64,000 nt of DNA from an uncultured Prevotellaceae bacterium (GTDB lineage Bacteria; Bacteroidota; Bacteroidia; Bacteroidales; Bacteroidaceae). Shown here one piece after another: positions 374 to 28,084 of the stretch. The stretch spans positions 186,001-250,000 of the forward strand of contig CADASP010000002.1 of assembly GCA_902790625.1 (NCBI GenBank), given 5' to 3'. Position numbers and translations under genes: made by a program. The first letter of the stretch is position 1, and every line of letters starts with the position of its first letter. The notes beneath the pieces were generated by a model that did not search any database, was not told the origin of the DNA, and saw only the letters and a program-made list of their open reading frames with translations.

Positions 374-1261
374 CTATATGTTTGTATTATATCCTAAGTA
401 ATTATAAAAGACTTCGTCGGAGAGGCGCAGCGGCGGCTCATCCTGACTGACGGTGAACACCAAGTCTTCCTCGACACTGAGGAAGTAGTCCTTGACAAAC
501 AGGCGCAACAACTCCACATCGTCGAGCAGTTCCATGAAATGCTCGCGGCACTCGTCGTCGCTCCAGTAGTGGATGTCGTAGTAGCTCACGGGCTGGCTCC
601 ACGTGTTGCCCACGAAGCCCTGGCCGAGCGTCATGTCGAGCTTGTCCTCGTAGCGGGGATGGTCGTCGGCAAACTGGCGCACATCGCTACGCGGCTGAAT
701 GGTCAGCCCCTCCTCCATCAGCACCTTGCGCAGCAGCAGGGTGAGCAGGGTGCGGTTGCCCCGGATATACTTGCAGCAGGGCAGGAAAGGGATGATTTGC
801 GCGATGAAGCGGTTGTGGCGCTGCTCGTCGGTGAGGCTGTCGCCAATAATCTGCTGCAGCACCACATTGCCGTCCTTTGCCAGCGGCTCCAGCGTGGAGC
901 GCACGTCGCTGCGCAACTTCAGCAGCAACACGTCGAGAGGGGCGAAGAACTGGTAGGCCTTCTTGATCTCCTCGTCCTGTTTCTCCAACTCCTCCTCGAA
1001 ACGCTCCTTCTCCTCATACTTCGGCAGATTGTCGAAGCGGTCGATGGGATGGAACATATACTCGGGCAGCGAGTTGTAGATGCTGTTGCGCCCCACGGTA
1101 ACGTGCATGGTGCCGTCGCCCATCATCTCGGTGTCGATGATGTCGTTGTAGGTGTTGCGCTTGTGCAGACCCTTCAGCTCCACCTTGCACTGCCCCACGG
1201 GATAGTAGGACATGAGCAGCTCCACATTCAGGTCCGGCGGCAAAAAGAGAGGTGTTTGCAT
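374..1261 (-). CDS. tssG: TssG-like T6SS baseplate protein
   Basis: 295 residues, no signal peptide or membrane segment. The last 80 residues follow the TssG C-terminal pattern: a short helical stretch (WSDDECREHFMELLDDVELLRLFVKDY), a beta strand with charged turn, then PPLRLSDEVFYNYLGYNT, comparable to the usual ARLGWxTWL ending of TssG. Residues 80-110 are a charged helix (EEKERFEEELEKQDEEI). TssG pairs with TssF in the baseplate wedge; no TssF-sized gene is seen here. The gene lies between the E1 gene and the TssK-like gene. The length matches TssG (about 300), but sequence similarity by eye is weak, so another baseplate protein is possible. Confidence 0.55.
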   Translation of the reverse strand: MQTPLFLPPDLNVELLMSYYPVGQCKVELKGLHKRNTYNDIIDTEMMGDGTMHVTVGRNSIYNSLPEYMFHPIDRFDNLPKYEEKERFEEELEKQDEEIKKAYQFFAPLDVLLLKLRSDVRSTLEPLAKDGNVVLQQIIGDSLTDEQRHNRFIAQIIPFLPCCKYIRGNRTLLTLLLRKVLMEEGLTIQPRSDVRQFADDHPRYEDKLDMTLGQGFVGNTWSQPVSYYDIHYWSDDECREHFMELLDDVELLRLFVKDYFLSVEEDLVFTVSQDEPPLRLSDEVFYNYLGYNTNI

Positions 1262-1309
1262 AACTCCTAACTCCTAACTCCTAACTCTTAACTCCTAACT
1301 CCTAACTCA
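1262..1309. repeat. Tandem 7-bp CTCCTAA repeat between tssG-like and E1 genes
   Basis: About seven near-perfect copies of CTCCTAA fill nearly the whole gap between the E1 stop (1307) and the TssG-like start (1261). Read on the minus (coding) strand it is purine-rich (TTAGGAG), so each unit contains an AGGAG core that could act as a ribosome-binding site. Copy number change would alter spacing before the downstream start codon. Confidence 0.85.
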
Positions 1310-2617
1310 AAAAGCGTCCGCAGTGAGTTCTACATGGAAAGCGCCCTTATCTGTGGTCACCATCAGCACGTCGTAGGGCGGGATGCCTATCTGCTGCAGG
1401 GTGAGGTCCTGATAGGGGAAGCGGTCGTCGATGTTCTCATAGAAGTGCTTGCGGATGACGGTGCGATAGCTGAGCTGGCGCAGCTCGGCATCCTGCTTGA
1501 TGTAGTCGTCGAGCTTCGATTCGGGCAGCATCACACGGAACTCCTTCTCAGGACGGTCGGAGACGATGACATCGATGAACTTGTTGTTCACCATATTGAT
1601 TTCCACCGTCTCGGCACCCAGCAGCTGCTGCAACTTAGCCAGCGTGTCGGCCACGGTCATCTGTGCCGAGAGCTGCGGGCACTCCATCACGTCGTCCCAA
1701 CGCTCATGTGCAGGACAGTTGGCCTTCCACGAAGCGAAACGGTAGATGCTGGTGGTGCAGGTCATGCCTTCGTAGCGCAGCATCTTGCCGCTCAGGGTCT
1801 TGAAGGGCTGGGCGGGCTTCAGTGCCTTCACGGGCTTCACGGTGCCTATGGGCTTCACCAACTGTATCAGCGGTTTCTCGGCCTTCTCGGCTTCTGCCTC
1901 CTGTTTGGCAGCAGCATCGGCAGCGTCGTTGTCGGCATCGAGCGTGTCGAGGTGAATCAGCTTCATGGCCTCCTGCACCTGCAGCGCGCCGATGATGCTG
2001 GCGCTGATGGGTGTGGTGGCTATGCGGCCGTGCTCGGTCTGCGTGCGCACCACGTCGGCACAGCCCGTGCGCAACATGATGTTGTTGAACTCCTCGCGCG
2101 AGAGGCCACACTCGTAGCAGCTCACGCCCGGGGTGTAGACCTTCACGGCACCCGTCAGGTTCTCTATGCTGCCATCAATCCAGCTCTTGCCGGCACGCAT
2201 GGCCATGCGGTTGAGCAGATAGCGGGCCAGACGACTGTCGAGGCAGCCGATGATGACATCGACAGAGCGATAGAGGCCGAAGCCCACCTCGGAGAAGAGG
2301 TTGCCCACGATGGGCGTCACCTCAATCTGCGGATTGATCTCGCGGGCACGCTTGGCCACGATGTCGGCCTTGAAGGCGTGACTGTAGGCATCCTCCTCGC
2401 GGAAGAGGATGGAGCGGGTGAGGTTCGACAGCTCGATGCGGTCGAAGTCGACCACGTAGATATGGCCGATGCCGAAGAGGGCGAGGTTCTTCACTACCTC
2501 GTTGCCCAAGGCACCGGCACCAGCCACCAGCACGCGGGCCTGCTTCACACGGTCTTTCTTGAACCAGGAGAGGAGCGTGAACACGCCCTCTCCCCATTCA
2601 TATTGCTGTTTATTCAT
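1307..2617 (-). CDS. E1-like Ubl-activating enzyme (ThiF/MoeB fold) with C-terminal extension
   Basis: 436 residues, cytoplasmic. The adenylation domain is intact: nucleotide loop GAGALG (33-38), VVDFD with Asp57/Asp59, SNLTR (64-68) with the conserved Arg, and GCLDS with Asp127. CYEC (167-170) and CPAH (301-304) could form one zinc site of CxxC plus CxxH type. Cys186 in RTGCADV lies where UBA3-type E1 enzymes carry the thioester cysteine, before TTPISASIIGALQVQEAMKL. A charged linker (225-250) leads to a C-terminal region (about 318-436) that may be a ubiquitin-fold-like E2-recruiting domain. Expected reaction: ATP-dependent adenylation of the Ubl C-terminus, then transfer to the E2. It starts 3 bases after the RING gene stop. 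The catalytic Cys is inferred by position only. Confidence 0.85.
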   Translation of the reverse strand: MNKQQYEWGEGVFTLLSWFKKDRVKQARVLVAGAGALGNEVVKNLALFGIGHIYVVDFDRIELSNLTRSILFREEDAYSHAFKADIVAKRAREINPQIEVTPIVGNLFSEVGFGLYRSVDVIIGCLDSRLARYLLNRMAMRAGKSWIDGSIENLTGAVKVYTPGVSCYECGLSREEFNNIMLRTGCADVVRTQTEHGRIATTPISASIIGALQVQEAMKLIHLDTLDADNDAADAAAKQEAEAEKAEKPLIQLVKPIGTVKPVKALKPAQPFKTLSGKMLRYEGMTCTTSIYRFASWKANCPAHERWDDVMECPQLSAQMTVADTLAKLQQLLGAETVEINMVNNKFIDVIVSDRPEKEFRVMLPESKLDDYIKQDAELRQLSYRTVIRKHFYENIDDRFPYQDLTLQQIGIPPYDVLMVTTDKGAFHVELTADAF

Positions 2618-2620
2618 AGC

Positions 2621-4999
2621 TTACGATTCTACATACTCAAAGATGGTGTCGCCAATCTTGAAGGTGTCGCCATTATTCAGGACGGCAGTCTTGCTCACCG
2701 GCAGCTCGGTGCGCATGTTGTAGAGCACGCCAGCGGCCAGTGCCTTCAGCATGGGCAGCGTCTTCTGCTGGTCGATGTAGAGCTGCACGTGCTCCTTGGC
2801 CACCTTGTTGCTCTTCTCCCAGTTCATCTGCACCTCGCAGTCGCCAGTGGCACCGATGGTCACCTTGTTGCCGCCACCCGTGGCATTCATCCACTTGTGG
2901 ATAGGAATCTTCTGGCCAGCCTTCACGCCATTCTTGATGACGAGGAAGTAGCGCTCGGCGAGCATACGCACGGTGACGAGCGAAGCGCCCAGGCCACCAC
3001 CGAAGATGATGAAGTCGAGCAGCATGTTGAGCCAGCCCACGTTGCCGATGGAGCCGCACATCAGCACCACAAAGCCGATGGCTGCAGCGATGAGGCCACC
3101 CAGCAAAGCGCTCTTCATGGGAATCGACGACTTGATGGTGAGGCTCAGGGGGACGCATACTGCGAAGAGGATATAGGCGGGCAGCGAGCAATACCAAGGG
3201 ATGTAGGTGGTGCCCACCATGGAGAGCAGCAAGCAGAAGATGATGCCTCCCACAGCCATGGCAGCCATGCCGATGACACCAGAGAGCAGCGAGAAACCGA
3301 TGATCTTCAGATAGACCATCGCGTCCTTCTTGCGATACTCGTCGAACCAGCGGAACACCAACGACAGGAAGAATCCCAACAGCAGACCGATGGTGAGCAG
3401 CGCCGACACCTTGTTGACGCAGTCGCCCATCAGGTTCAGCTTCTGCTCCTCGTTGGTGAAGAAGGTGTTGGCGATGCCCTCACCAATGCCATGGAACAAT
3501 CCACGACCTGTCATCTCGAAGATAATCCAGCTCACCAGTGCGGCCAGGATGCCGGCCAGCGTCTGGTAGGTGTCGCGCAGCGTGGACTTCGAGAACATCT
3601 CCTTCCAGTCCACGTGGTCTTGTATGCCATCCTTGCAGTTCTGGCCATACTCCACGCACTTGTAGCCATTCTGCTGCCAGCAGGCCACGTGCATGATGTG
3701 CTTGCACTTGGTCACCACCAGCTGGCCTGGCTCGATGTTCTGACGGCAATAGGTGCAGATGCGACGCGAGACGTTGGCCTCAGGCTCATATTTCTTATAG
3801 TACCGCATGCTGAAGCGCTTCGACTTGACGAAGGGCACGAGCACCTTCATGACAAAGAAGAAGAAGACGAAGGTGAGCAGGGCGACGAGCAGGGCCACCA
3901 ACAGTTTGGTGACGGTGTCGCCAGTGCTCTCGGCCTTGATGGGCCACGGTGTCTCGGCCGAGCCGATGGTGTAGTCGCCTCTGCCAGCCTCGCCGCTCTT
4001 CCACTCCGCCATATAGTTGACGAGGCCCGTGTAGGTCTTGTCCTTGGTGGCACGATAGACGAAGGCATAGTCGTACATGGCATCCTTCACCACCTGCTTG
4101 AAGTTGTTCAGCACGCTGTTGAGGTCTTCGCTCGGAGTGTAGGCACCCTGACGGTCGGCCAGCACGTTGCCATCGGCATCGCGCGGAGCCGACACGCCCT
4201 GCAGCGTGAGTTCCACATTCTCGTCGACACCCTCGCCTGTGTAGTAGAGCGCGTAGACCTTGGGCACGTTGTGCGTGGCATTCGACTGGTAGTCGGTCAC
4301 CTCGATGAAGGATATCAGCTCGTCGGCAGGGCGCATGTTGCCCTCGGTGAAGACGAAGAGCAGGTTCTTGTCCTTCGCCATCTGTGCACGCTTGGCGATA
4401 ACGGCATTGCGCTCATAGCCCATGGCGGTGCGCACGCTGTCCTCCAGTTCTGCCTTCTCTGTGGCAAACTCTGCCAGCTTGGCGTAGAGCGCGCCATAGA
4501 AGTATTTGTTCTCGGAGTGCTGGTGGAACAGCGGCTCAAAGTCCTTCAGGTTGCGCTTGGTGACGAGCTGTGTCTGCGTGACATCATTGCCAAAGAATGA
4601 GAGATAGACGCAGCTGTCGGGGGCGCTCTGCACCAGTTGTCCCACGGCATCGTAGATTTGTCCCTTGCCCTCCTCGGGGATGCTCAGGTCGACGAGCACG
4701 GAGAAGGTGAAGTCGTTGGGAATTCGCTGCCCCGAACTCAGCTCCACGATGGTGCGCCTGTCGTTGGCAATCATGGCCTCGTCTTCATACATCACCAAGT
4801 ACTTCTCCAAGTCGGCAGCAGTGACATCCTGGCTCGACTTGCCCTTGGCATCGAGCACCTTCAGGAACAGCGTGATGCTGTCACGGCCTTGTGCATACTC
4901 ATATTTCTTGTCGCAGAACTGAATCTTGCTCACGTCCTGTGCTTGCGTCTGCACCAAGCATGCCAGCATGGCGCAGACCATCCAAAGTCTCTTCATCAT
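2621..4999 (-). CDS. Membrane protein with vWA-like, RING-finger and FHA-like domains (candidate E3 ligase)
   Basis: 792 residues. Signal peptide 1-20. Residues 95-260 resemble a von Willebrand A fold with a degenerate metal site (DLSIP, Asp104). TM1 spans 364-390 and is followed by basic residues, placing the next part in the cytoplasm. Cys415, Cys418, Cys432, His434, His437, Cys440, Cys448 and Cys455 form a RING-like C-C-C-H-H-C-C-C set; the last pair is spaced by six residues, wider than usual. About six further membrane segments (481-680) follow. The C-terminal 80 residues look FHA-like (VTIGATGDCEV, later NNGDTFKIGD) but lack the usual phosphothreonine-binding Arg and Ser. The start overlaps the JAMM gene stop by one base, suggesting coupling. 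E3 activity is inferred from the RING and the neighbouring Ubl, E1 and E2 genes. Confidence 0.8.
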   Translation of the reverse strand: MMKRLWMVCAMLACLVQTQAQDVSKIQFCDKKYEYAQGRDSITLFLKVLDAKGKSSQDVTAADLEKYLVMYEDEAMIANDRRTIVELSSGQRIPNDFTFSVLVDLSIPEEGKGQIYDAVGQLVQSAPDSCVYLSFFGNDVTQTQLVTKRNLKDFEPLFHQHSENKYFYGALYAKLAEFATEKAELEDSVRTAMGYERNAVIAKRAQMAKDKNLLFVFTEGNMRPADELISFIEVTDYQSNATHNVPKVYALYYTGEGVDENVELTLQGVSAPRDADGNVLADRQGAYTPSEDLNSVLNNFKQVVKDAMYDYAFVYRATKDKTYTGLVNYMAEWKSGEAGRGDYTIGSAETPWPIKAESTGDTVTKLLVALLVALLTFVFFFFVMKVLVPFVKSKRFSMRYYKKYEPEANVSRRICTYCRQNIEPGQLVVTKCKHIMHVACWQQNGYKCVEYGQNCKDGIQDHVDWKEMFSKSTLRDTYQTLAGILAALVSWIIFEMTGRGLFHGIGEGIANTFFTNEEQKLNLMGDCVNKVSALLTIGLLLGFFLSLVFRWFDEYRKKDAMVYLKIIGFSLLSGVIGMAAMAVGGIIFCLLLSMVGTTYIPWYCSLPAYILFAVCVPLSLTIKSSIPMKSALLGGLIAAAIGFVVLMCGSIGNVGWLNMLLDFIIFGGGLGASLVTVRMLAERYFLVIKNGVKAGQKIPIHKWMNATGGGNKVTIGATGDCEVQMNWEKSNKVAKEHVQLYIDQQKTLPMLKALAAGVLYNMRTELPVSKTAVLNNGDTFKIGDTIFEYVES

Positions 5000-6798
5000 T
5001 ATTTGTTTTGTTTAATCCAAGTTTTCAATTCTTCCAGATTCTGTTCGCCATAGAACTCCTGCTCGGTGCAGAGGTCGCCATTCAGCACGGGAATGGTGGT
5101 GAGCAGCCCGTCGGTGGGTGTGTAGACCAGCACATAGCGTATGCGGTCGAGATAGCCCTGCACGGCACGCCTCACGGTGGGGATGCTGCAATGGGGTGCC
5201 GACACGAAGCAGCCCGTGAGACTCAGCTTCGGCTCCACATCCTTGTCCGACACCTGCTCGGCCACATATTCCACCTGCGAGCCATGCTGGCTGGCATAGC
5301 CGTGGAACATCGAGATGATGTCATCGGCCTGTCCTGGCCCTGTGAGGTCCATGCAGATGTCCATCACCACATTCTTGCTCAGCTGCACCCCGGCGCATGC
5401 GTCGTCGCGCTTCGGGGCCGTCTGCAACGTGTTGTAGAATTCCCCTGGCGTGAACTCCTTGGGCGTGGACACTACGGGGCGCTGGACCGACGTCTTCAGG
5501 CTCTCTTCGGCCCAGTGGTACCAGTCGATGAGCGAGTACATCTTCTTCAGGTCGCTCTTTGAGTTGATGGTGGCGTCGCGGCGATAGGTGAAGATGCCCA
5601 CGTCCTGCATCGGCGTGAGGATGTCGACGACGATGGCGGTGAGGAAGTTGGGATGGGTGGCGTGCTTCAGCTGGTCCTGCACGCTGGTGTCGCTGTTGCT
5701 GAAGAACACGCCCAGCCCGGGATGCGAGTGCACCCAGCAAGTGAGGTCGTACTGCAGGTTGGTGTCGCGGCGCAGCTTGCGCAGCTGCTCCAGCACCTTC
5801 AGCTTGATTTTGCCGCCGAAGTTCAGGGCGTACTCCTCGAACACGGCATCGTCGCCGGGCAGCACGATCTCTTCGAGCGAGACATAGTACTCGCTGCTCT
5901 CATTGTCGTAGACCCAGCGCCCCAGCACCATGCAGCCGTCCTCCTTCGGGCTTTCGGGGTTGCGCAGGTCTTCGGCATACATATTATATATGTCGATGAT
6001 GCAGCTGTTCTTGATATACATGCGGCGCACAGCACTCTCGTAGGTGAAGTCGATGGAATCCACCTGCAAGTAGTTGGGATTGTCGATGACATCCTCCAAG
6101 CTCTGCTTCTTCAGGATGGTGGCCGTCTTGCGTCGCACGATGATGCCCCCATCTGCCGACTGCTGCCCCCCTACCCCAGTGGCGGGCCTCACGTTGCTGC
6201 GCGGTTTCACCGGGACGGGTTTTCCCCCCTTTTTGCTCTTGCTGGCAATGGCAATGATGACCACCAGCAGCACCAAGGCACCAGCAATGATTCCGATGAG
6301 CTTCCAGTCGAAGGGTTTGTCGGGTTCCACCTGAATCTCGTTCTTCAGGCTGATGAGCTTCTCGCCCAGCTTGGTGAACTTGCCATTGAGGACATCTTCC
6401 ATCTGCTTGCGGAAGGATACGGTAGCCTCGGCATTGAGTTCGGTGTAGTTCTGCATCACCTTCTCGATGATGAGGGGCGTATCATCCTTATACTTCTGCA
6501 GCCGCTGCTCCATCTCCTGCACATAGGCATTCAAATCGTTGTTTTGCACATAGTCGGCCTTGTCGGTGCGATGTAGTAGGTCGTCGAGATATTTCCCTAT
6601 CTCCCCAAGTATGCGCTGCTGCGTCTCGTCGGCGAGGAAGGGGTCGGCCTGCACGTACTGGTTGAAGGCGTCCATGACCTCCATTTTCGACTCTGGCACG
6701 GTCTTTTGGACCTTTGGCTTGGCTGCCCACGCCTCAGTGGCGAAGACGGCCATGAGTGCCATGACGAAGAATCGTGCTAATACTTGAATCTTTTTCAT
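4999..6798 (-). CDS. Membrane-anchored JAMM/MPN metallo-isopeptidase
   Basis: 599 residues. Signal peptide 1-25, a helical periplasmic part (30-160), one membrane span (167-186), then SKSKKGGK marking the cytoplasmic side. The JAMM domain (about 250-420) has a complete metal signature, HSHPGLGVFFSNSD, with His357, His359, Ser367 and Asp370; Glu286 in KEDGCMVLGRW is the likely catalytic Glu. Residues 440-599 form a further domain I cannot identify. JAMM enzymes cut Ubl-lysine isopeptide bonds. Because the Ubl of this cluster already ends in Gly, deconjugation is a likelier job than precursor processing. A JAMM fused behind a signal peptide and periplasmic region is unusual and fits a component of the secretion envelope complex. 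Confidence 0.9.
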   Translation of the reverse strand: MKKIQVLARFFVMALMAVFATEAWAAKPKVQKTVPESKMEVMDAFNQYVQADPFLADETQQRILGEIGKYLDDLLHRTDKADYVQNNDLNAYVQEMEQRLQKYKDDTPLIIEKVMQNYTELNAEATVSFRKQMEDVLNGKFTKLGEKLISLKNEIQVEPDKPFDWKLIGIIAGALVLLVVIIAIASKSKKGGKPVPVKPRSNVRPATGVGGQQSADGGIIVRRKTATILKKQSLEDVIDNPNYLQVDSIDFTYESAVRRMYIKNSCIIDIYNMYAEDLRNPESPKEDGCMVLGRWVYDNESSEYYVSLEEIVLPGDDAVFEEYALNFGGKIKLKVLEQLRKLRRDTNLQYDLTCWVHSHPGLGVFFSNSDTSVQDQLKHATHPNFLTAIVVDILTPMQDVGIFTYRRDATINSKSDLKKMYSLIDWYHWAEESLKTSVQRPVVSTPKEFTPGEFYNTLQTAPKRDDACAGVQLSKNVVMDICMDLTGPGQADDIISMFHGYASQHGSQVEYVAEQVSDKDVEPKLSLTGCFVSAPHCSIPTVRRAVQGYLDRIRYVLVYTPTDGLLTTIPVLNGDLCTEQEFYGEQNLEELKTWIKQNK

Positions 6799-6815
6799 AT
6801 TTTGATGTTTATAAA

Positions 6816-8348
6816 TTACTTGGCATTATTGGTGGTATTGTCAGAGCCCGGCTTGCGCCAACGCTTGTATTTGGCGGGAATGGCATCGTTGAGCGACTGA
6901 TGCTTGCCCCCTCCCACGGTAATTCCTGCACTGGCGATGCCCGCTGCGGCCTTCACTTCGCTGGCCGTCCTCAGTGGTCGCTTGCCTGGCGTGGTGGGTT
7001 TGCCATCAGCGGCAGGCTGCTGAGCGGGTGCCGACGGCTGGGCAGCAGGATTGGCCTGTGGGGCTGCTGAAGCGGCTTTCTGGGCAGCGGGTTTCTTGGC
7101 GGCATCGCCGCCGGCGCCCTTGCCCAGTCCTTTCAGCTTCTCCATGGCAGCGTCGCCATCGGCATTCATCTTCTTGCGGGCCTCGCGCTGCAACTGTGCG
7201 TTGACATCCTTCGTCAGCGGGTTGTCGTCGAGTCCTGGAATCTTCACATTGCCGAGCGCCTGCTCCTGCGCCTTCTTGATGTTGTCCATCATCATCTTCT
7301 GCATCTTGTTGTTCTTGATGGTCTGGAACACTTGCTTTCCTGCCATGAGGAGCATGCCCAGTCCGGCGATGCCTCCGATGAGCCACATCATGTCCTTCTT
7401 GTCGTCGCTGGCCTGCTTGGCCTGTGCCGCCTGAATGCTGTCCTGTCGTGCCTGCTGCTGCTGTGCCTGCTGCTGTGCGGCGGCCTGTTGTGCTGCCGCT
7501 GCCGCCTGCTGGTTCTGCTCGGCCTGGGTCTCCAGCTCGGCCTTCTTGGTGTCGTAGGCCTCGAGCACCTTGGCAATCTGGTCGCCCACCTCTGGGTCGG
7601 CAATCTTGTAGCGCAGTTCGCGCAGCATCGCCGCCTCGTGGGTGAGTTCCTCAGAGAAGGGAACCTTCGTGGCCTTGTCGAGCATCGACTGCACGGTGGC
7701 GACGCGGATGAGTGCCTCGTCGACAGGCGACAGTCCGTCGTCGATGAGTTCCTCGGTGGTGGTGACGATGTCGTCGGCATTGGCAGCCCTGTCATCATCG
7801 TCAGCAGCAGCGCCGCCACCCTTGCTGGCCTTGGCACCGCCGCCACCGCCCTTCACCTTGGTCGAGAACACCAGCGGCTCCATCTGGCTGAACAGCTTGT
7901 AGTGACGCTTCTTCTCGTAGTGGGCCAGATAGACGGGTATGCTGATTTGCACCTCGTTGCTTGTGGTGAACGTCAGCTGGGGATTGTCTTGCAGCAGGAA
8001 GTAGCCGTCGTTGGAGAAGGAGTACTGCACCCCTGCCGGCACCATGAAGGTGCAGGGCGTGATGCCTTCGAACTTCATGTCGTTGTAGGAGCCGGTGCGG
8101 TCGAAGATGACCACGGCCACCTCGTCCAGCTTCTTATACTCTTTCTGGTTCTTGGTGCCCAGTTTCTTCTGCACGCTGTTGAAGCGCAGCGAGGTCTGTC
8201 CACCCGTCTGCTGGATGGTGTAGTCGATGATGATGCGGTCGCCAGCCTCTGAGAAGAGCGTGTCGACGACGTCCTTCGCCATTGCCGTGTTGCTCCCCGC
8301 CGCCATCGCAACGATGGCAGCCAGGAGCGTTAGCCATTTCTTCGTCAT
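6816..8348 (-). CDS. Envelope protein: periplasmic beta domain, Ala/Gln coiled coil, one TM
   Basis: 510 residues, family not recognised. Signal peptide 1-24 (AMA-KD). Residues 30-165 look beta-rich and end with ISIPVYLAHYEKKRHYKLFS, a pattern also seen in the next upstream gene product (LPIYLAKGKKG). A Gly/Ala and Asp-rich stretch (167-190), helices, and an Ala/Gln run (278-312) lead to a membrane span (321-339). The C-terminal 170 residues are basic, then Ala/Pro-rich and probably cytoplasmic. It overlaps the upstream gene by 4 bases (ATGA), so translation is likely coupled. The topology would suit a trans-envelope T6SS protein comparable in role to TssN/O/P of Bacteroidetes systems; that is inference. 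Confidence 0.7.
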   Translation of the reverse strand: MTKKWLTLLAAIVAMAAGSNTAMAKDVVDTLFSEAGDRIIIDYTIQQTGGQTSLRFNSVQKKLGTKNQKEYKKLDEVAVVIFDRTGSYNDMKFEGITPCTFMVPAGVQYSFSNDGYFLLQDNPQLTFTTSNEVQISIPVYLAHYEKKRHYKLFSQMEPLVFSTKVKGGGGGAKASKGGGAAADDDDRAANADDIVTTTEELIDDGLSPVDEALIRVATVQSMLDKATKVPFSEELTHEAAMLRELRYKIADPEVGDQIAKVLEAYDTKKAELETQAEQNQQAAAAAQQAAAQQQAQQQQARQDSIQAAQAKQASDDKKDMMWLIGGIAGLGMLLMAGKQVFQTIKNNKMQKMMMDNIKKAQEQALGNVKIPGLDDNPLTKDVNAQLQREARKKMNADGDAAMEKLKGLGKGAGGDAAKKPAAQKAASAAPQANPAAQPSAPAQQPAADGKPTTPGKRPLRTASEVKAAAGIASAGITVGGGKHQSLNDAIPAKYKRWRKPGSDNTTNNAK

Positions 8349-9430
8349 AGGCCTTGTATACGGTTGTAGCGTTCAATGATTTTGCTCTTGTAGTCGCCCC
8401 CGCGCTTCCACTGCGAGGCATGCTTGGCGCAGTCGGCGGCAGTGCAACAGCCATAGAGTGCGTTCACCTGGCCCATCACGCTCTGCTTGGTGGCCTTACG
8501 GTCGGCGCTGGTGTAGATCTTCTTGTAGAGGTCGTCCAAGCGGTGATAAATCTGCTGCAGCGATAGGTTGCAGTAGCTGCACTGGTGCGAGGGCTTGGGT
8601 TCTGACCGGTGCTGACGGCAGATGCCTTTTTGTGCATCGAGGTCGATGTCCTTGTCCAGGTCGTCCTTCAGGGCGGCATAGTTCTTGTAGCCTTTGTCGC
8701 CGGTGTTCCATCCGTGTGCGCTGATGGCAGCGTCAATCTTCGATTTCAGGTCGTTGATCTTCTGCTTGTAGGGTTCCTGCTGCTCTTCCACGCTCTCCTT
8801 GTGCTTTTTGGCTGTGCAGAACAGGGCATTCTTCACCTCGCGCTTCAGGCTCTCGCACTCCTCTTGCAACGACAGGTACTCGGCCGAGGGCTTGGTGGTG
8901 ATGTCGATGTCGATTTCAATCACCTGCTTGCGCAGCAGCAGCAGCTTCTCCTTGCCCAGCACACGCCCCACGATGCCTTTCTTGCCCTTGGCCAGATAGA
9001 TGGGCAACTTCACCACGAGTTGCTTATCGGCCTCACATCTGAAGGAGCCCAGTGTGTACTTGCCCGAGGGTTCGATGAAGAAGTCGTTGTCGGTGCTGGG
9101 GCTGTAGGGGTCGATGATGCGCTTGCCCTTGGTGCCTCCGAAGAGTTTGTCGTACTGGAACGAGGGTTTCAGCTTCTTCACCTGTTTCTCGGTATATGGC
9201 TGGCAGAAGAGTGCCAGCAGCTTCGTCTCGTCGAGGTTTTCCACCTCTACCTGCACCATAGGTGGGTCGTCGCTGTCGGGATTGAGCAGCGCGACGAAGA
9301 TGTTGCAATACGACAGGTTGATGGTTTCGCTGGTGTTGTCGCTACCCAGCGTCATCTTGCGCTGCTCGTCGGCCCAGCCGTAAAGAACGGCCAAACAAAG
9401 CAAAGGTATAATCAATACTTTTTTCATCAT
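8345..9430 (-). CDS. Secreted periplasmic protein with Cys-rich C-terminal half
   Basis: 361 residues, family not recognised. A signal peptide covers about 1-20 (VLIIPLLCLAVLYGWA). The N-terminal half (30-185) is beta-rich and ends LVVKLPIYLAKGKKG followed by hydrophobic strands, like the N-terminal half of the neighbouring 510-residue protein, so the two may be paralogous. The C-terminal half is helical and carries ICRQH, CSYC, GCC and DCAKH, enough Cys/His for disulfides or a metal site. There is no TM beyond the signal, so the protein is probably periplasmic. It is the first gene after the E2 and overlaps the 510-residue gene by 4 bases. A role in the secretion envelope complex is inferred from position. 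Confidence 0.65.
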   Translation of the reverse strand: MMKKVLIIPLLCLAVLYGWADEQRKMTLGSDNTSETINLSYCNIFVALLNPDSDDPPMVQVEVENLDETKLLALFCQPYTEKQVKKLKPSFQYDKLFGGTKGKRIIDPYSPSTDNDFFIEPSGKYTLGSFRCEADKQLVVKLPIYLAKGKKGIVGRVLGKEKLLLLRKQVIEIDIDITTKPSAEYLSLQEECESLKREVKNALFCTAKKHKESVEEQQEPYKQKINDLKSKIDAAISAHGWNTGDKGYKNYAALKDDLDKDIDLDAQKGICRQHRSEPKPSHQCSYCNLSLQQIYHRLDDLYKKIYTSADRKATKQSVMGQVNALYGCCTAADCAKHASQWKRGGDYKSKIIERYNRIQGL

Positions 9431-9528
9431 TTATGCACTTTAGTTTTTATAGTTTTTGTCTTTAGATTCTTTGGTTTCTATGGCCTCGAAACCGACTTTC
9501 CATCAAAAAGCCATCGTCGTTGAAAAAA

Positions 9529-9591
9529 GGCGTTGACTTTTTAAAATTTGGCGTTGACTTTTTTCAAAAAGGCGTTGACTTTTTGAAAAAA
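9529..9591. repeat. Three tandem 21-bp repeats with GGCGTTGACTTTTT core
   Basis: The core GGCGTTGACTTTTT begins at 9529, 9550 and 9571, an exact 21-bp period; the spacers between cores are A/T-rich and vary. The array sits in the 219-bp gap between the E2 stop (9650) and the next minus-strand start (9430). The same box occurs singly or paired at 28,243-28,256, 62,145-62,158 and 62,171-62,185. On the coding strand it reads AAAAAGTCAACGCC. I see no reading-frame support for the small plus-strand ORF across it. Confidence 0.85.
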
Positions 9592-9649
9592 GTCGCGTTC
9601 CTTTTTTTGCTCGCCATTTTTCCGCCCCACATCAAGCCTCCCAAAGCCG

Positions 9650-10312
9650 TCAGATGCTCAGCGAAATCTTCTTCTTTGGCTCTGCGCCTTCGGGCGTTTC
9701 GGGTGCGGGCTTAGGCTGTGGCTTTGGTTCCTCGGGCATGTCCTGTGGGAATTTCACCCATCCGTTGGGTTCGCCCTCTTCGCGCACCCACTCTGCCACG
9801 GCCTGGTCTTCAGGATAGGGATAGGTGTTCTGGGCGTGATACATCTGATACTTCAGATAGCGCTCCACACGCAGCACCAAGTCCTTGATGCTGGCCATGA
9901 CGCCCATCTCCTTGATGGTGAGGCAGACGTGTCCCTTGAACGAGCCGCTATAGCGGATGTTGGGGTGCCATACGTCGCTGATGAAAGTGAACACGGGGTT
10001 GCCATCGGCCGACGGGTAGTTGTTGGGCAGCACGATGCTCATCTTGTGCAGATAGCCGAAGATGGGCTTGCGTGGCGGCTCGGTGTCCTCGACACCCACG
10101 ATGCACTTGCAGCGATACCATATCTCGAACTCTGTGGGCAGTCCTGTGGCATTCTTGCGCCGGATGATGTACGACAATGACGGTTTCAGCGGGTTGGCGG
10201 CCTCGGCCCTGCGCTTGCTGCAGAGTGCGTCCAGTTCCTTCCACTCTTGGAACAGACGGGCGTCGCGTCCTTTCAATTCCTTCAAGTTGAAATTATTTAA
10301 TGCGGGATTCAT
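9650..10312 (-). CDS. E2-like Ubl-conjugating enzyme (UBC fold)
   Basis: 220 residues, cytoplasmic. The UBC core is unusually close to eukaryotic E2 enzymes: LPNNYPSADGNPVFTFISDV matches the YPxxPPxVxF region, then His116-Pro117-Asn118 (HPN) and the active-site Cys130 in GHVCLTI, 12 residues after Asn118. HPN Asn stabilises the oxyanion during lysine attack, so lysine conjugation is plausible. A Pro/Ala-rich tail (190-220) follows the fold. The neighbours are the Ubl upstream and the envelope proteins downstream. The start lies 98 bp after the Ubl stop, across simple repeats. The family is secure; the substrate is unknown. Confidence 0.92.
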   Translation of the reverse strand: MNPALNNFNLKELKGRDARLFQEWKELDALCSKRRAEAANPLKPSLSYIIRRKNATGLPTEFEIWYRCKCIVGVEDTEPPRKPIFGYLHKMSIVLPNNYPSADGNPVFTFISDVWHPNIRYSGSFKGHVCLTIKEMGVMASIKDLVLRVERYLKYQMYHAQNTYPYPEDQAVAEWVREEGEPNGWVKFPQDMPEEPKPQPKPAPETPEGAEPKKKISLSI

Positions 10313-10410
10313 AATTATTTTCGATTTGAGGGTTGAGATTTGAGGTTTGAAGTTTGAGATTTTTCAAGTTAGGAGTGAGGAAGCAAATTCTTCACTTATC
10401 ACTTATCATT

Positions 10411-10737
10411 TCATCCAGCGATGGGTACTGAGATGAGGTGCAGATGGTCCATGGGCTGGATGTCGTAGTCGATGAGGGCCATTTCGCGCCCGTCCTCGTC
10501 TTCAAACTCCAGAATCACGGGTTCCTCCTCGTCTTCCATCAGTTTGCCCAGCAAGTACTGAATGGGGTTGCCGCCGTTGTCCATTTTCGGCAGTTCAAAC
10601 ACCTGCACGATGCTGTTGATCTGGTCGCGGATGGTTTTGTTCGGGTCGGTGACCTTCACTTCGATTTCGTCATACGATGTGCCGTCGATGGTGAGCATGA
10701 CGATAAATTCCTCTTGATAAAATTCTTGGTCTGTCAT
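10411..10737 (-). CDS. Ubiquitin-like modifier, YukD-like beta-grasp protein
   Basis: 108 residues, acidic, no signal. Residues 10-106 show beta-grasp spacing: strand FIVMLTI, turn, strand EIEVKV, helix KTIRDQINSIVQVFELP, then REMALIDYDIQPMDHLHLISV, which matches the ubiquitin and YukD ending (short loop, acidic pair, final strand). The protein ends VPIAG with a free terminal Gly and nothing after it, so it could be activated by the E1 without processing. It is encoded directly upstream of the E2. Without this context it could be an ordinary YukD-like protein; the E1, E2 and JAMM neighbours make a modifier role likely. Confidence 0.8.
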   Translation of the reverse strand: MTDQEFYQEEFIVMLTIDGTSYDEIEVKVTDPNKTIRDQINSIVQVFELPKMDNGGNPIQYLLGKLMEDEEEPVILEFEDEDGREMALIDYDIQPMDHLHLISVPIAG

Positions 10738-10793: not shown

Positions 10794-11849
10794 TTACCAA
10801 TTCCAAGACCCATCTTCTTGGGCGAAATTTGGGCTCTTGAACAGCTCATGTCCGTCCTTGAAGACGATAAGTTGGTAGGCCTCCTGCGGAATGTCGAGGG
10901 CCTGTTGTTGCATCTCGCCACCTTTCAGCGCCATCTCATAGCGATTGTGGCGGCTGTCGCAGCGTAGCAGCAAGTCCGCACGTGCACTGGGATCGAAGCT
11001 GAAGAAGCGGTGCAGGATGGGATAGAGCACCTGGGCGTCTATCCACCAGTAGGCCGAGAGGTGGCTGCGCCCCTCGTCCCAGCGCAGAGCCAGCCGCTTG
11101 GGCATCCCCGCCTCATGGTATTTCAACAACGAGATGTCATCGGGCTGCTGATGGTGGGTGCCGTCGTAGCGCTGCACATGCAGCTCGTTCAGCATCATAT
11201 CATCGTAGAACATGTCGTCCTCGTCGTACTCTTGCCAAGCCTCGCCATCCCAATACTCCTCCAATGGCACATAACAATATTCCATTTGCTCCATCCAATG
11301 GTCGAAAAGGTCGGTGGGGGGAAGTCCATTGTCAATGAGATTCTGCTTGACAATATCATCATTGTCAACACACAACTGACAGTATTGCTGCATGCTGTAT
11401 TTTCCTATACGATTGCCCAAATTCCTTTCATCCACCTCTCTCCCTTGCAGCCAATGTATGAGCACAGACTTATAGTGTCCTCGCAGCCAAATGGCCACCT
11501 TGCCGTAGGGAGCCGCACCAACAACGACGAACTCGTATTGAGCGTTTCCTTCCTTGTCTTTATCCTCCAAGAGCTTTTCTATCTTTTTGCTATCAATGGG
11601 TGCATCCAGCCAATACAGCTTCACTTCGGTCAAGGCAATCCAAAGCATGTTGATGCCACTGGGAGAGGGATAGGTGTTATTGTCAATGATGACGGGCGAT
11701 GTGGAATCCCCCCACTGGGCACGCTTATAGTTGCCGCGCGAAATCATGAGCGGCTCATGCTCATCCCCCTCAAAAGTCAAATTCCCCAAAAAGGTGGAGA
11801 TAGGATAGAGACGGGGAACACACTCGGATGTCGAATAAGTAAAAGCCAT
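10794..11849 (-). CDS. DUF2931-like protein, probable immunity partner of the upstream effector
   Basis: 351 residues, cytoplasmic as read (no signal). The central stretch YEFVVVGAAPYGKVAIWL resembles the GxAPGGxVxVWLSG core of DUF2931 proteins, which are common in Bacteroidetes and often sit beside T6SS toxins. The N-terminal part has aromatic beta-like segments; the middle (205-225) is very acidic with many Tyr. It starts 8 bases after the stop of the 640-residue putative effector, the usual arrangement for an immunity gene. Base use is more A+T-rich than in the Ubl genes. Both family and immunity role are moderately supported by eye. Confidence 0.55.
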   Translation of the reverse strand: MAFTYSTSECVPRLYPISTFLGNLTFEGDEHEPLMISRGNYKRAQWGDSTSPVIIDNNTYPSPSGINMLWIALTEVKLYWLDAPIDSKKIEKLLEDKDKEGNAQYEFVVVGAAPYGKVAIWLRGHYKSVLIHWLQGREVDERNLGNRIGKYSMQQYCQLCVDNDDIVKQNLIDNGLPPTDLFDHWMEQMEYCYVPLEEYWDGEAWQEYDEDDMFYDDMMLNELHVQRYDGTHHQQPDDISLLKYHEAGMPKRLALRWDEGRSHLSAYWWIDAQVLYPILHRFFSFDPSARADLLLRCDSRHNRYEMALKGGEMQQQALDIPQEAYQLIVFKDGHELFKSPNFAQEDGSWNW

Positions 11850-11857
11850 GAGACCTT

Positions 11858-13780
11858 CTATAGTTTCAATTTACCATCTTCACTAAAAGCGGAGCCTCCA
11901 TCGTTGGTGCTGTAGCCATAGTCGTACATAGACGAGTGATTGGGTTCACTTTCGTTCTTCGGCTCACTGCTACTTATTGGTTTTCCGTCGGTGCTATAAG
12001 CAGTCTTTCCATCGTCCTTGCTTAAGCCATAGTCGTGTACCGACGAATGGTCGGAGGCACTTTCGTTTTTCGGCTTGCTGCTGTCAGTCGGATTTCCGTC
12101 GGTGCTATAAGCAGTCTTTCCATCGTCCTTGCTTAAGCCATAGTCGTATATCGAAGAATGGTTGGGATTGACATCCAACTGCGGTTCCTCATAGTTTTCG
12201 AACGAAGTATCTCCATCGTTGCTACCATTATTGACATCAGGAGCTGTTGACTGCTCCAAATCACTACTGGATGACGGGGACGTTGGTGCTGTTTCCTTAA
12301 CAGTGGAAGAATCGCCAACTGCAGATTGCGAATTATTACCGGTGGCTCTTTTATAGAGTGACACACCTTCATTACCAACAGACACCACATACTGAAACTT
12401 GCCAAATCCATCCATATTCTTCCAAGGTTCACTGAATCCTTTGGCCCATAAATCTTTCATCTTGGAACCATAAGTGGATTTGGAAGCTGTAGAACCGGCA
12501 GGAGCGGACGGGGCTTTAGGAGCAGGAGCTGGCGGGGCTTTAGGAGGAACAGGGTCAAAGTCCATTCCTTCAACATTGTCTATTTCTTCTTCAAGGCCAT
12601 CGTAATTCTTTTGAGCTTCTGCGGCTTTGGTGGCTTTTTCCTCTGCAGCTTTGGTGGCTTTTTCCTCCGCGGCTTGTGTAGCTTTCTTTTTTGCTGTATC
12701 TTTTGCTTTTTTTTCAGCAGCAGCTCTGGCTTCTGCTGAAAGGCCGTATTTCATGGCATCATCACCTTCTTCCCTTATCGCTTGTTGTAAGGCCTTTTGA
12801 TACTCTATATCGAAAGTTTGCTTATAAACATCATCATAAGTCGCTTTATAAGTTTGTTCATAAGTCGTTTTATAGGTTTGGTCATAAACCGTCTTGACTG
12901 CTTTGTCATTAGTTCCTTTGGTTGCGACATTCTTTGCTTGGTTCTTTGCTTGTGCCTTCGCTTGTGCTTCTGCTGCATCTCCAGCCATCTCTATTTCCAA
13001 GGACAAGGCGTTATCAGCCATTGCTTGCCCAGCTTTTCCTGGCATCTTTGACCCCAATTTAAACAATCTCATGCCCAACTGCTTGGCACCAGGCACGGCT
13101 TTCGCAGCCTTAATGTAAGACGGTCCAGGAATAGAACAGGCAGCGGAGATGGCGGCTCCAATAGCTTCGCCTTTCGCTAATTCCATTTTTTCTTTGTCTG
13201 CAGAGTATTTATAATGCGTCTCCACTTCCTTTATTGGTTTCCCGTCAGCATCGAGAACAAGATCTCCGTTGTCATCAGTTTTGTATATTGTTACTTTCAC
13301 TTCTTCACGCTTGACAGAAGCCATAGCTTCGGCCATATTTTCCATACCTTCCACCGACTGCCAAATGGCATCGACAGGCCCAACTATGAACGAGGCTCCC
13401 GGAACGGCTCCCGCAATACCCATTATATCGTGCCGTGCATCCCAGACAGCATCACTCGCCTCCTTTACTGCAGGAACATTATTCTTCAACACCTGAATCC
13501 CAAGACCTATTACTGGATTACCTCCAGACATCACCACATTTTCAACAATAGCCCTTGTGATGGGTGCGTCTTTTCCGTATTGGGATTCCAGTTCATCTTT
13601 ATTGGCTTCGTAAACGAGTCCAACAGCATGAACAGCGGGTATGGCAGCATATACACCATCACGCATTTTCACGGGGTCGTCGTTAATCCACCCATCAACA
13701 TATTTCACCACACCTTTTGCCGTATTTAAACCCGGCATCCAGTCTGAAACATTGTCTGCGATTTCAGTCCAATCTGCCAT
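11858..13780 (-). CDS. Putative T6SS effector with C-terminal 38-residue repeats
   Basis: 640 residues, no signal peptide. The N-terminal 180 residues are Ala/Gly/Val-rich with weakly hydrophobic helices (AIPAVHAVGLVYEA, MGIAGAVPGASFIVGPVDAI). Residues about 300-345 hold eight-residue Tyr-Lys repeats (YDQTYKTT, YEQTYKAT, YDDVYKQT). An Ala/Lys helix (365-405) and a Pro/Ala linker (425-450) follow. The C-terminus has three 38-residue repeats (538-575, 576-613, and a partial 614-640) containing YDYGLSKDDGKTAYSTDG. Position after the PAAR-like gene and before a probable immunity gene suggests a secreted effector. No catalytic motif is recognised. Codon use is clearly more A+T-rich than the flanking T6SS genes, consistent with transfer. 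Confidence 0.5.
   Translation of the reverse strand: MADWTEIADNVSDWMPGLNTAKGVVKYVDGWINDDPVKMRDGVYAAIPAVHAVGLVYEANKDELESQYGKDAPITRAIVENVVMSGGNPVIGLGIQVLKNNVPAVKEASDAVWDARHDIMGIAGAVPGASFIVGPVDAIWQSVEGMENMAEAMASVKREEVKVTIYKTDDNGDLVLDADGKPIKEVETHYKYSADKEKMELAKGEAIGAAISAACSIPGPSYIKAAKAVPGAKQLGMRLFKLGSKMPGKAGQAMADNALSLEIEMAGDAAEAQAKAQAKNQAKNVATKGTNDKAVKTVYDQTYKTTYEQTYKATYDDVYKQTFDIEYQKALQQAIREEGDDAMKYGLSAEARAAAEKKAKDTAKKKATQAAEEKATKAAEEKATKAAEAQKNYDGLEEEIDNVEGMDFDPVPPKAPPAPAPKAPSAPAGSTASKSTYGSKMKDLWAKGFSEPWKNMDGFGKFQYVVSVGNEGVSLYKRATGNNSQSAVGDSSTVKETAPTSPSSSSDLEQSTAPDVNNGSNDGDTSFENYEEPQLDVNPNHSSIYDYGLSKDDGKTAYSTDGNPTDSSKPKNESASDHSSVHDYGLSKDDGKTAYSTDGKPISSSEPKNESEPNHSSMYDYGYSTNDGGSAFSEDGKLKL
11861..12169 (-). 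repeat. 114-bp in-frame repeats encoding the effector tail
   Basis: Two full and one partial 114-bp unit, nearly identical at DNA level over GGTTTTCCGTCGGTGCTATA and the neighbouring block around 11,977-12,020 and 12,090-12,135. They encode the 38-residue Ser/Asp-rich repeats of the putative effector. Similarity at silent positions points to recent duplication. Confidence 0.85.
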
Positions 13781-14728: not shown

Positions 14729-15478
14729 TCAACCCTTCTGTATAGCAGCCTGTTTTCCCTCGTTTTCCTTCACTTCTTTGTCGCTGGCAGGACGGTATTT
14801 GTCGTTCACCTTTCCTATGGCCTCCGCCTGCTTCTTGGCGGCGTTCTCGCGATAGGTCTGGCTGGCCTCGCGTGCTTTCTGTGCCTTGGCGGTGCTGCCT
14901 TCGGTCGCATATTTCTCTGCCATGCGATCCAGGTCGGAAGCGAAGGCGATGTCGCTGGCTCCGGCATGCTGGGCCGATTCCATCTCACTGTCATACTGCT
15001 GCTGCTCCGAGGGTGACATTTGCTGTCTCTGCATGGGCGACAGTGGCAGGGGGATGGACACATCAACCGACACGTCGGGGGTGATGACCGGCGGCACACC
15101 CGGCATCTGACCATCGGTGGTGAACTTGATGACTCCGCCCCACATGCAGAGGCACTGGCTGTTGCGCGTCAGTGCGGGCTGGCCCTGAATGAGGCACTGC
15201 GGGTTACCGGGCATCCAAGGGGCGGTGATGGCTGGGATGCAGGGCATAGGGGTAAGCACGCCCATGGCGGCGGCCGTGGCGGCGGCCACAGTGGGGTTGC
15301 TGGGGGTGTTGCACATGCCAAATGGCATGATGTTCACCATGGGCGAGAAGTCCATGATGTTGGCGCGCGGCACATTGCAGAGCATCTTGGTACGTGCCGG
15401 CAGTACAACGAGCGACGATGGCGCCAGCCCAAAAGTGCAGGTCATCATGGCTCCGAGGGTTACGTAGCTATCTCCCAT
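14729..15478 (-). CDS. PAAR-like spike protein (DUF4280)
   Basis: 249 residues. The N-terminal 130 residues closely follow the DUF4280 pattern: GAMMTCTFGLAPSSLVVLP, IMDFSPMVNIMPFGMC, NPTVAAATAAAMGVLTPMPC, then PQCLIQGQPALTRNSQC ending CMWGGVIKF. DUF4280 proteins take the place of PAAR tips that sharpen the VgrG spike in Bacteroidetes T6SS. The C-terminal 110 residues are polar and helical with many Gln, Lys and Glu and no known toxin motif, so they may be an adaptor tail. It lies 6 bp after the 329-residue accessory gene and downstream of VgrG. Confidence 0.85.
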   Translation of the reverse strand: MGDSYVTLGAMMTCTFGLAPSSLVVLPARTKMLCNVPRANIMDFSPMVNIMPFGMCNTPSNPTVAAATAAAMGVLTPMPCIPAITAPWMPGNPQCLIQGQPALTRNSQCLCMWGGVIKFTTDGQMPGVPPVITPDVSVDVSIPLPLSPMQRQQMSPSEQQQYDSEMESAQHAGASDIAFASDLDRMAEKYATEGSTAKAQKAREASQTYRENAAKKQAEAIGKVNDKYRPASDKEVKENEGKQAAIQKG

Positions 15479-22245: not shown

Positions 22246-22434
22246 ATATAATAATGTATAGAGATGAGGGGAGACTATTATCGTATCAGCAATTGCAGCC
22301 TTCACAACCAAAGAGGCACTTTTGGCATTTGGCATGCAGTGAAGGATTGTAGGGGGAAGGAACGAAAATAAAAGCGGAAAGGCTTGAGGTCTGGGTCTTC
22401 GTCAGGCCCAAACCCCAAACCCATGAGGATAGAC

Positions 22435-22842
22435 TTAGTTGTCGATGGTCCAGCGGTTGTTGTGCTGGGCATTGCCCATCTTGATGACTTTAGCCGAGAT
22501 GCAGAACTCCTCGTACTGCTGTACCTCGTTCTTGTTGTCGTAGGTCTCGGCATACTCCACCATGTAGCCCTCTTCGAAGTCGAGGTGCTTCATCTCGCCA
22601 CCCTGGCGGTTGGGCCATGAGATGGTGCCGTTCTTCGACATGTAGGTGTCGCACATCCACTCGAGCAGGTCGGTGTTGCCATCATCGTTTGACTTCACTT
22701 TCACGTAGATCTTGCCGCCACGGGTGGTGCCAGTGGGCTGACCCTCGACATCGGTCTGCTGGTTGAGTTCGTAACGAACATACATTACTTCGCGCTCGGC
22801 AATGCCATCAGCATTGATGGTTACAGTTCTCTGTGCTGCCAT
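22435..22842 (-). CDS. tssD: Hcp tube protein (TssD)
   Basis: 135 residues, no signal. The Bacteroidetes TssD pattern is clear: VMYVRYELNQQTDVEGQPTG, TRGGKIYVKVKS, DLLEWMCDTYMSK, GYMVEYAETYDN and the final AKVIKMGNAQHNNRW. Hcp hexamers stack into the inner tube that is expelled on sheath contraction. It follows TssC by 114 bp and precedes the giant Hcp fusion, so the locus encodes two different Hcp-fold proteins. The length is standard. Confidence 0.92.
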   Translation of the reverse strand: MAAQRTVTINADGIAEREVMYVRYELNQQTDVEGQPTGTTRGGKIYVKVKSNDDGNTDLLEWMCDTYMSKNGTISWPNRQGGEMKHLDFEEGYMVEYAETYDNKNEVQQYEEFCISAKVIKMGNAQHNNRWTIDN

Positions 22843-28033: not shown

Positions 28034-28084
28034 ACACACCCTCTTTTTAGCTATGCCATCAGGGCATTATGCCAATATTGCCTA

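Follow-up and report, generated by a model that had tools for sequence, protein, structure and literature searches.

A ubiquitin-like conjugation gene set with predicted membrane components in a Bacteroidota type VI secretion locus: a likely stand-in for TssNQOPR

The stretch of DNA analysed here (the window) comprises 64,000 nucleotides from an uncultured Prevotellaceae bacterium (assembly GCA_902790625.1, contig CADASP010000002.1, positions 186,001 to 250,000). On its minus strand lies a type VI secretion system (T6SS) locus which contains genes for a ubiquitin-like modifier (Ubl), an E1, an E2, a RING protein and a JAMM metallopeptidase, together with two envelope proteins, p361 and p510. 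Judging by sequence, there is strong support for a contractile secretion machine that possesses a complete and catalytically intact Ubl-conjugation set of its own, because the set recurs among genomes, keeps its synteny and conserves its catalytic residues; an earlier, sequence-only reading of this DNA had proposed as much. The set is likely to be a membrane module that conjugates the Ubl, serves contractile injection machines specifically and stands in for the TssNQOPR proteins. The kinds of component are already known; their combination with a T6SS or an extracellular contractile injection system (eCIS), and their embedding in the membrane, are apparently undescribed. To our knowledge, no secretion system is known with its own E1-E2-E3-deubiquitinase cascade, and the literature searched (titles, abstracts and some passages, the 2011 RING study not covered) holds nothing that joins a T6SS to a bacterial Ubl cascade.

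The Ubl with its terminal Gly, the E2 (HPN, Cys130), the E1, the RING protein and the JAMM peptidase lie, with overlapping genes, where the sequence-only reading had placed them. Its inventory of five Ubl-pathway genes is accurate, and overlooked the two envelope proteins (8345-9430 and 6816-8348) as well as the membrane nature of the RING and JAMM proteins. In the order of transcription, the module and the gene that follows it are:

10411..10737, minus strand: Ubl of 108 residues with the C-terminus ...SVPIAG (AlphaFold2, Foldseek and profile against ubiquitin in the PDB)
9650..10312, minus strand: E2 with HPN at 116-118, Cys130 and a KKISLSI C-terminal tail (sub-threshold UQ_con match; UBE2K profile match)
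8345..9430, minus strand: p361, predicted to be exported, with no later transmembrane (TM) segment (hydropathy)
6816..8348, minus strand: p510, whose N-terminal domain is predicted to be exported, followed by a likely TM segment and a cytosolic tail (hydropathy)
4999..6798, minus strand: JAMM metallopeptidase with a signal peptide and one TM segment at 167-185 (RPN11 profile match, residues)
2621..4999, minus strand: RING membrane protein with a signal peptide, vWA domain (88-309), TM segment, RING (415-455), six TM segments and FHA domain (682-792)
1307..2617, minus strand: E1 with a ThiF-type adenylation domain (Pfam ThiF, 5e-47), invariant Cys186, CYxC...CxxH and a C-terminal extension
374..1261, minus strand: TssG-like baseplate protein (family profile matches a canonical T6SS-locus protein, 2e-11 and 4e-13)

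Gene spacing in the locus is operon-like: RING and JAMM overlap by 1 nucleotide and p510 and p361 by 4, E1 and RING are separated by 3 nucleotides, and a gap of 219 nucleotides lies between E2 and p361.

Relatives were sought in three sets of genomes: (i) GTDB genomes, in which 189 E2 relatives were confirmed and the best 80 by score examined, giving 79 loci; (ii) a family survey of 251 genomes; and (iii) a phylum survey of 296 genomes. These counts overlap, since at least three of the 79 loci apparently come from family-survey genomes (G033, G122 and G113). At E <= 0.001, relatives of the RING protein numbered 849 among 7996 proteins scored, and those of the E2 528 among 700. T6SS core genes lie within 10 kb in 76 of the 79 loci, which contain E1 (72), Ubl (77), JAMM (75) and RING (74); at least some of the missing genes are missing because loci reach contig ends. 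The loci belong mostly to Prevotellaceae, and also to Muribaculaceae, Barnesiella, Dysgonomonadaceae-type bacteria, Lentimicrobiaceae and one Sphingobacteriia metagenome-assembled genome (MAG). The nearest named relative among the best 80 of the 189 is a Prevotella sp. MAG (E2 96% identical), and three isolates carry the module: Xylanibacter muris PMUR, Palleniella intestinalis PINT and Barnesiella sp. An22. In the family survey, the E2 was found in 8 genomes and the RING protein in the identical 8, all of them among the 21 genomes (22 loci) with the sheath protein TssC (P = 6e-10, relatedness ignored). This is the co-occurrence with sheath genes that the sequence-only reading had anticipated. 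Nor are the Ubl genes regularly found away from a T6SS, the cases being three of the 79 loci (L046, L109 and L094) plus two eCIS genomes; L109 stands at a contig end and TssC lies elsewhere in its genome. We consider it highly probable that the module is dedicated to contractile injection machines.

That the module is instead an independent defence or stress system, akin to Bil or Bub and merely travelling with T6SS genes, is improbable. Bil and Bub are precedents for an immune function of bacterial Ubl operons, and L094 and L046 carry the module with no detectable T6SS; against this, the 76 loci adjoin T6SS core genes in two different arrangements. The E1 is the sole protein that PADLOC recognises, by way of a generic adenylation domain (its E1-E2 models cover that part alone), and an E2 search of 72,556 plasmids gave no match. 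Among 50,697 phage records the E1 found just 3 matches (identity about 32-33%), and two of these carry a MoeB annotation. A known defence system was rejected on these grounds.

The catalytic residues are conserved throughout the relatives' loci. The Ubl family profile matches ubiquitin in the PDB, and the AlphaFold2 model of the Ubl (pLDDT 84.6) has a ubiquitin-like fold which Foldseek pairs with ubiquitins; Pfam, YukD family included, gave no meaningful match for the window Ubl. The C-terminal Gly is invariant in 23 aligned rows and terminal in 72 of 76 Ubl-length matches (four longer ones were kept apart), three others having a few residues after it and one being an accessory protein. The E2 family profile reaches UBE2K (1.6e-8), the Pfam UQ_con match being slightly sub-threshold (9e-6, 25.7 bits against a cut-off of 27), and the HPN...C motif is present in 80 of 80 E2s. 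The E1, the sole ThiF match of the window's genome, has a family profile that reaches UBA7 (2e-34), and its motifs G-x-GALGNE, CYxC...C...TT and CYxC plus CxxH each occur in 72 of 72 loci. A sulfur-carrier role (ThiF/MoeB) was rejected for it: NCBIfam scores are far below cut-offs, and E2, RING and JAMM accompany it. The JAMM family profile reaches RPN11 (9e-12); E286, H357, H359, S367 and D370 are invariant in 16 rows, and HxHP...SxxD is found in 74 of 75 relatives' loci, the single miss being the L046 copy, cut at a contig end. Pfam matches for RING and Prok-JAB stay below threshold, and the RING family profile reaches RNF165 only weakly (0.0075); the zinc ligands keep strict spacing in 72 of 74 RING proteins, with one or two inserted residues in the other two.

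Read from these sequences, real conjugation is probable. A purely structural use, with the Ubl, E1 and E2 folds as a scaffold comparable to the ubiquitin-fold baseplate-docking domain of TssN, has two precedents: the ubiquitin-like cytosolic domain of TssN, reported to be a baseplate hub (PMC10781749), and YukD itself, reported as unconjugated (PMC1779556). The joint conservation of active-site Cys, HPN, nucleotide motif, JAMM ligands and C-terminal Gly argues against such a use, which we consider very improbable.

Several side observations concern the Ubl and the E2. In L110, L121 and L054 residues follow the conserved Gly (AGGR, PGAK and PIAGGSKK, respectively), and these loci have a JAMM gene, as if trimming were needed. 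The type A E2 (the window's arrangement, described below) ends in a proline-rich linker and a conserved ...KKxSLSI terminus (window 9650-9710), reminiscent of a short Ubl-binding peptide. Furthermore, accessory Ubl-domain proteins with no terminal Gly are encoded upstream of the Ubl gene in 4 of the 79 loci; they may act as decoys or immunity proteins, or be cargo that exploits the site where the Ubl docks:

L077:5050-5769: accessory Ubl-domain protein
L082:8710-9633: accessory Ubl-domain protein
L093:8094-8477: accessory Ubl-domain protein
L104:8668-9483: accessory Ubl-domain protein

On a Ubl conjugate, trypsin would leave a branch of 24 residues, EMALIDYDIQPMDHLHLISVPIAG, after its last cleavage site, and a search for AG remnants after trypsin would fail for that reason.

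Transcription of the locus runs from a ClpV-type ATPase towards the TssG-like gene. One protein with no match lies between VgrG and the PAAR-like tip and another directly after the tip; the remaining genes upstream of the module are:

24948..27302, minus strand: ClpV/TssH-type AAA ATPase (clear in Pfam; TIGR03345 467.9 bits and ClpB 583 bits, both below their own cut-offs)
24402..24857, minus strand: TssB (family profile against canonical G149 protein, 3.6e-30)
22957..24336, minus strand: TssC sheath (PF17541, 1e-129)
22435..22842, minus strand: Hcp/TssD (PF17642, 6e-32)
18757..22335, minus strand: long helical protein with a C-terminal Hcp domain (PF17642 at residues 1060-1191, 2e-28)
16490..18688, minus strand: VgrG (PF05954, PF04717)
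14729..15478, minus strand: PAAR-like spike tip, DUF4280 (PF14107, 2e-34)
11858..13780, minus strand: effector-like protein (no family match)
10794..11849, minus strand: DUF2931 protein (PF11153, 1e-10), a possible immunity protein

The name TssG for the product of 374..1261 is presumed from gene position; Pfam and NCBIfam gave no match for it. After it, beyond the window, come TssK (NCBIfam 5e-7), TssE (1e-4) and TssF (L002:13057-16370). The module thus sits, as the sequence-only reading had it, between spike/effector genes and a TssG-like gene; the TssK-like gene which that reading included in the flank is, like those of TssE and TssF, outside the window. TssB/C sheath, Hcp, VgrG, spike, baseplate and ClpV are all present in the genome. 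The product of 18757-22335 (1192 residues) has a long apolipoprotein-like helical stretch before its terminal Hcp domain, and a NusG-like protein (27335-28039), possibly an antiterminator specific to the operon, is encoded directly upstream of ClpV. Long antisense open reading frames (e.g., 1334-4600 on the plus strand) overlap every gene, but the reading that the set consists of chance or misannotated frames was rejected; profiles, synteny and models back the minus-strand set only.

The following types of locus can be differentiated: (i) type A, that of the window, with the order Ubl-E2-p361-p510-JAMM-RING-E1-TssG-TssK-TssE-TssF; (ii) type B (G224, G222, G034, G006 and L122), with the order E1-TssG-TssK-TssE-TssF-Ubl-E2-two envelope proteins-RING; (iii) type C T6SSs, which lack the module, complete in G196, G013 and G168 and a fragment in G041; and (iv) the eCIS type of G317 and G411, with the order STAND NTPase, E1, Ubl, E2, JAMM and RING-type membrane protein. 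L108-L121 are intermediates, mostly in type A order with JAMM. The invariance of catalytic residues spans types A and B, type B E2s being 37-43% identical to the window E2. The eCIS-type module adjoins PAAR and an eCIS_core effector protein (Pfam run on G317 only), and each contig also has a sheath match, at a distance of about 22 kb in one case (30.6 bits, the cut-off being 31.4) and about 45 kb in the other (33.4 bits, together with its neighbours). An eCIS relative of the Ubl matches Pfam YukD at 1.3e-5 (26.3 bits against a cut-off of 27). As for type C, proteins resembling Ser/Thr kinases (STK), PP2C phosphatases, FHA membrane proteins and WG-repeat proteins flank it (G196:C6, G013:C1, G168:C33; L024-L029), and relatives of three of these flank proteins also adjoin the Ubl module in L094; the labels STK, PP2C, FHA, DsbD, WG and U-box on proteins outside the window come from reading the sequences, mostly with no family search.

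The T6SSs that carry the module differ from the known Bacteroidota type in their sheath and lack TssN. Scored against PF17541, the 22 TssC loci of the family survey fall at 737-759 bits (nine), 418-441 (nine) and 338-347 (four). All nine high-score loci sit in TssN genomes, TssN being over its cut-off in 9 of the 251. The genomes with Ubl genes hold four mid-score loci and all four low-score ones, and G224 has one T6SS of each kind. The remaining five mid-score loci, with neither TssN nor Ubl genes, are the three complete type C systems, the G041 fragment and G098. In the phylum survey TssC was found in 18 genomes, 16 of them with TssN over the cut-off; the other two are the window's genome and G276 (100 bits). 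T6SS loci lacking the Ubl genes, which the sequence-only reading would have counted against a link, do exist among the TssN-type loci; in a TssC tree of 29 rows these form a clade of their own, and the G098 TssC groups with the Ubl type. Canonical loci G249 and G149 gave no match for E1, E2, Ubl or RING, and a weak G149 match to the JAMM profile (0.0003) was not taken as a JAMM. A single-clade origin of the Ubl-type TssC is not supported: its 20 rows need two changes in that tree, which has long branches.

Profiles for TssN, TssO, TssP, TssQ and TssR, built from four canonical loci (3-4 sequences each), gave no match in the 79 loci, the other Ubl loci or the type C loci; among the eCIS relatives, the TssP profile matches one protein per genome (2e-10 and 3e-7), perhaps through a PKD-type domain. 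The window's genome has no TssN over the cut-off of 30.3, TssO, TssP, TssQ and TssR not having been sought genome-wide; its best TssN match, at 24.6 bits, was rejected as sub-threshold and as a DsbD-like frame by reading. Pfam scans of proteins from the locus gave no TssJLM match, no genome-wide search having been made. According to a published survey, TssNQOPR is the only type of membrane complex reported in Bacteroidota T6SSs; its T6SSiii model demanded one TssNQOPR gene, while another of its models could do without them, and complete genomes were used (PMC10781749).

The module offers membrane proteins of its own. Topology was read from hydropathy, besides the six TM helices of the RING protein, which were predicted by model. 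This protein has a signal segment, a vWA domain outside, one TM segment, the RING, the six predicted helices and the FHA domain; 5-8 later hydrophobic segments are found in 74 of 74 members of its family. At least one such segment occurs in 73 of 74 JAMM proteins and in 50 of 62 members of the p510 family (window copy at about 323-341, borderline hydropathy of 1.54), and none in 64 of 65 members of the p361 family, whose N-terminal part is homologous to p510 (hhalign 97%). E1, E2 and Ubl have almost no hydrophobic segments. RING, JAMM and p510 are accordingly predicted to span the inner membrane, with periplasmic vWA or other domains; given the exported N-terminus, the RING, FHA and JAMM domains would therefore face the cytosol. 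By position, topology and exclusion, and not by homology, the membrane proteins of the module are candidates for the role of TssNQOPR. A TssN hidden in the RING protein was rejected (hhalign 0.3%), and the other envelope proteins did no better, in what is a weak test with few Tss sequences.

The genes are shown to be linked to those of the T6SS, to recur, to keep their order and their catalytic residues, and to lie at loci with no TssN; conjugation, its substrate and a membrane role are inferred. The E1 would adenylate the Ubl and hand it to Cys130 of the E2. The membrane RING protein would hold the charged E2 under the membrane, beside the incoming baseplate (TssK/TssG/TssE/TssF, encoded next door), and the target would most likely be a baseplate protein arriving to dock. 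Conjugation may promote docking or stabilise the docked baseplate; the JAMM protein, where present, would remove the tag and trim the few Ubls with residues after the Gly. Taken as a whole, the reading in which a component of the T6SS (likely the baseplate) receives the Ubl at the inner membrane, the set likely being there in the place of TssNQOPR, has about even chances, and so has the membrane-complex role considered by itself; the baseplate as the target falls somewhat short of that. More tentatively, there may be a separate class of contractile injection machine in Bacteroidota, with a membrane-embedded ubiquitin ligase as its anchor instead of TssNQOPR, in which RING, JAMM, p510 and p361 make up the membrane complex and Ubl cycles on the baseplate switch docking and firing; one ligase module would then serve both T6SS and eCIS, its five components having profiles closest to eukaryotic counterparts among solved structures.

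The Ubl might instead mark or load effectors or adaptors, e.g., by choosing which spike-borne effector to mount. The module stands directly downstream of PAAR, effector and immunity-like genes, it adjoins PAAR and eCIS_core effectors in the eCIS genomes, and the Gly-less Ubl-domain proteins are encoded just upstream of the Ubl gene. Still, the type B module adjoins TssG/K/E/F, away from PAAR; the module stays constant while effectors vary; and cytosolic loading needs no membrane-anchored RING and JAMM. Such control of cargo is rather unlikely. Lower still are the chances of recycling, in which the Ubl on a contracted sheath or baseplate would mark it for release or ClpV action after firing: ClpV, sheath and module share one operon and the JAMM, where present, would reset the cycle, whereas the predicted location of RING and JAMM is the membrane, and no JAMM is seen in type B loci.

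Several observations weigh against the preferred reading, that of a conjugating membrane module in the place of TssNQOPR. Two of the three phylum-survey genomes with the E2 (the window's genome, G317 and G411) lack TssC. L094, with full flanks in a 2.0-Mb MAG, gave no TssC, VgrG or sheath match, and the MAG of L046 (a 6.7-kb contig) gave no TssC or VgrG match. The absence of JAMM from type B refers to the loci examined, with no genome-wide search. Type C T6SSs have neither TssN nor Ubl genes, so the absence of TssN does not by itself demand the module; type C shows that another solution exists. G098 has a type-A-like TssC in an assembly with neither E2 nor RING (its contig ends after PAAR). 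The RING region of the eCIS relatives reads DPITQDAFEEGD, with the zinc ligands missing (L139:2346-4727, L141:2324-4672); we take it to resemble a U-box. Finally, the envelope proteins of the module bear no sequence relation to TssNQOPR (hhalign below 2%), and the argument for replacement is for this reason one from position and topology.

If the preferred reading is true, (i) protein conjugation is a built-in step in building or firing a contractile weapon; (ii) the view of TssNQOPR as the only membrane complex of the phylum would need revision; and (iii) bacteria supply a complete ubiquitin cascade that is compact and cultivable and whose client is a defined machine.

Among known systems, the YukD-like Ubl/E1/E2/RING/JAB operons reportedly described by Burroughs, Iyer and Aravind in 2011 through comparative genomics come close. 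They share with the window the grouping of Ubl, E1, E2, RING and JAB; the window differs in its contractile-injection locus, its membrane RING and JAMM, its separate Ubl and E2 genes, and in that no FtsH or caspase was seen. FtsH-ternary systems are related to these operons (PMC7159879). Bil (BilABCD) also has Ubl, E1, E2 and JAB, and a tail-like target would be a parallel (PMC11354881, PMC11364771); the window differs in its single-domain Ubl of 108 residues instead of a tandem-Ubl BilA, in its E2 with HPN...C instead of the CEHH motif of BilB, and in having a RING, membrane parts and a T6SS context. Bub (BubCD) shares bacterial Ubl conjugation, and the E1 profile reaches BubCD in the PDB (1.7e-10); in the window, E1 and E2 are separate, the E1 has much better-scoring matches among eukaryotic E1s, and the context is a T6SS. 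Cap2 of type II CBASS is an E1-E2 fusion, whereas here the two are separate genes. In the two eCIS genomes this module is found again, next to PAAR and eCIS_core effector genes and with a sheath on the contig; the window holds a T6SS (Hcp, VgrG and TssC), and its genome has no Phage_sheath_1 match. The Bacteroidota T6SSiii (PMC10781749) shares sheath, Hcp, VgrG, PAAR-like tip, TssK/E/F/G-type baseplate, ClpV and phylum with the window. It differs in having TssNQOPR and a TssC of about 750 bits, whereas the window type has no TssN, a TssC of about 340-440 bits and a full Ubl cascade.

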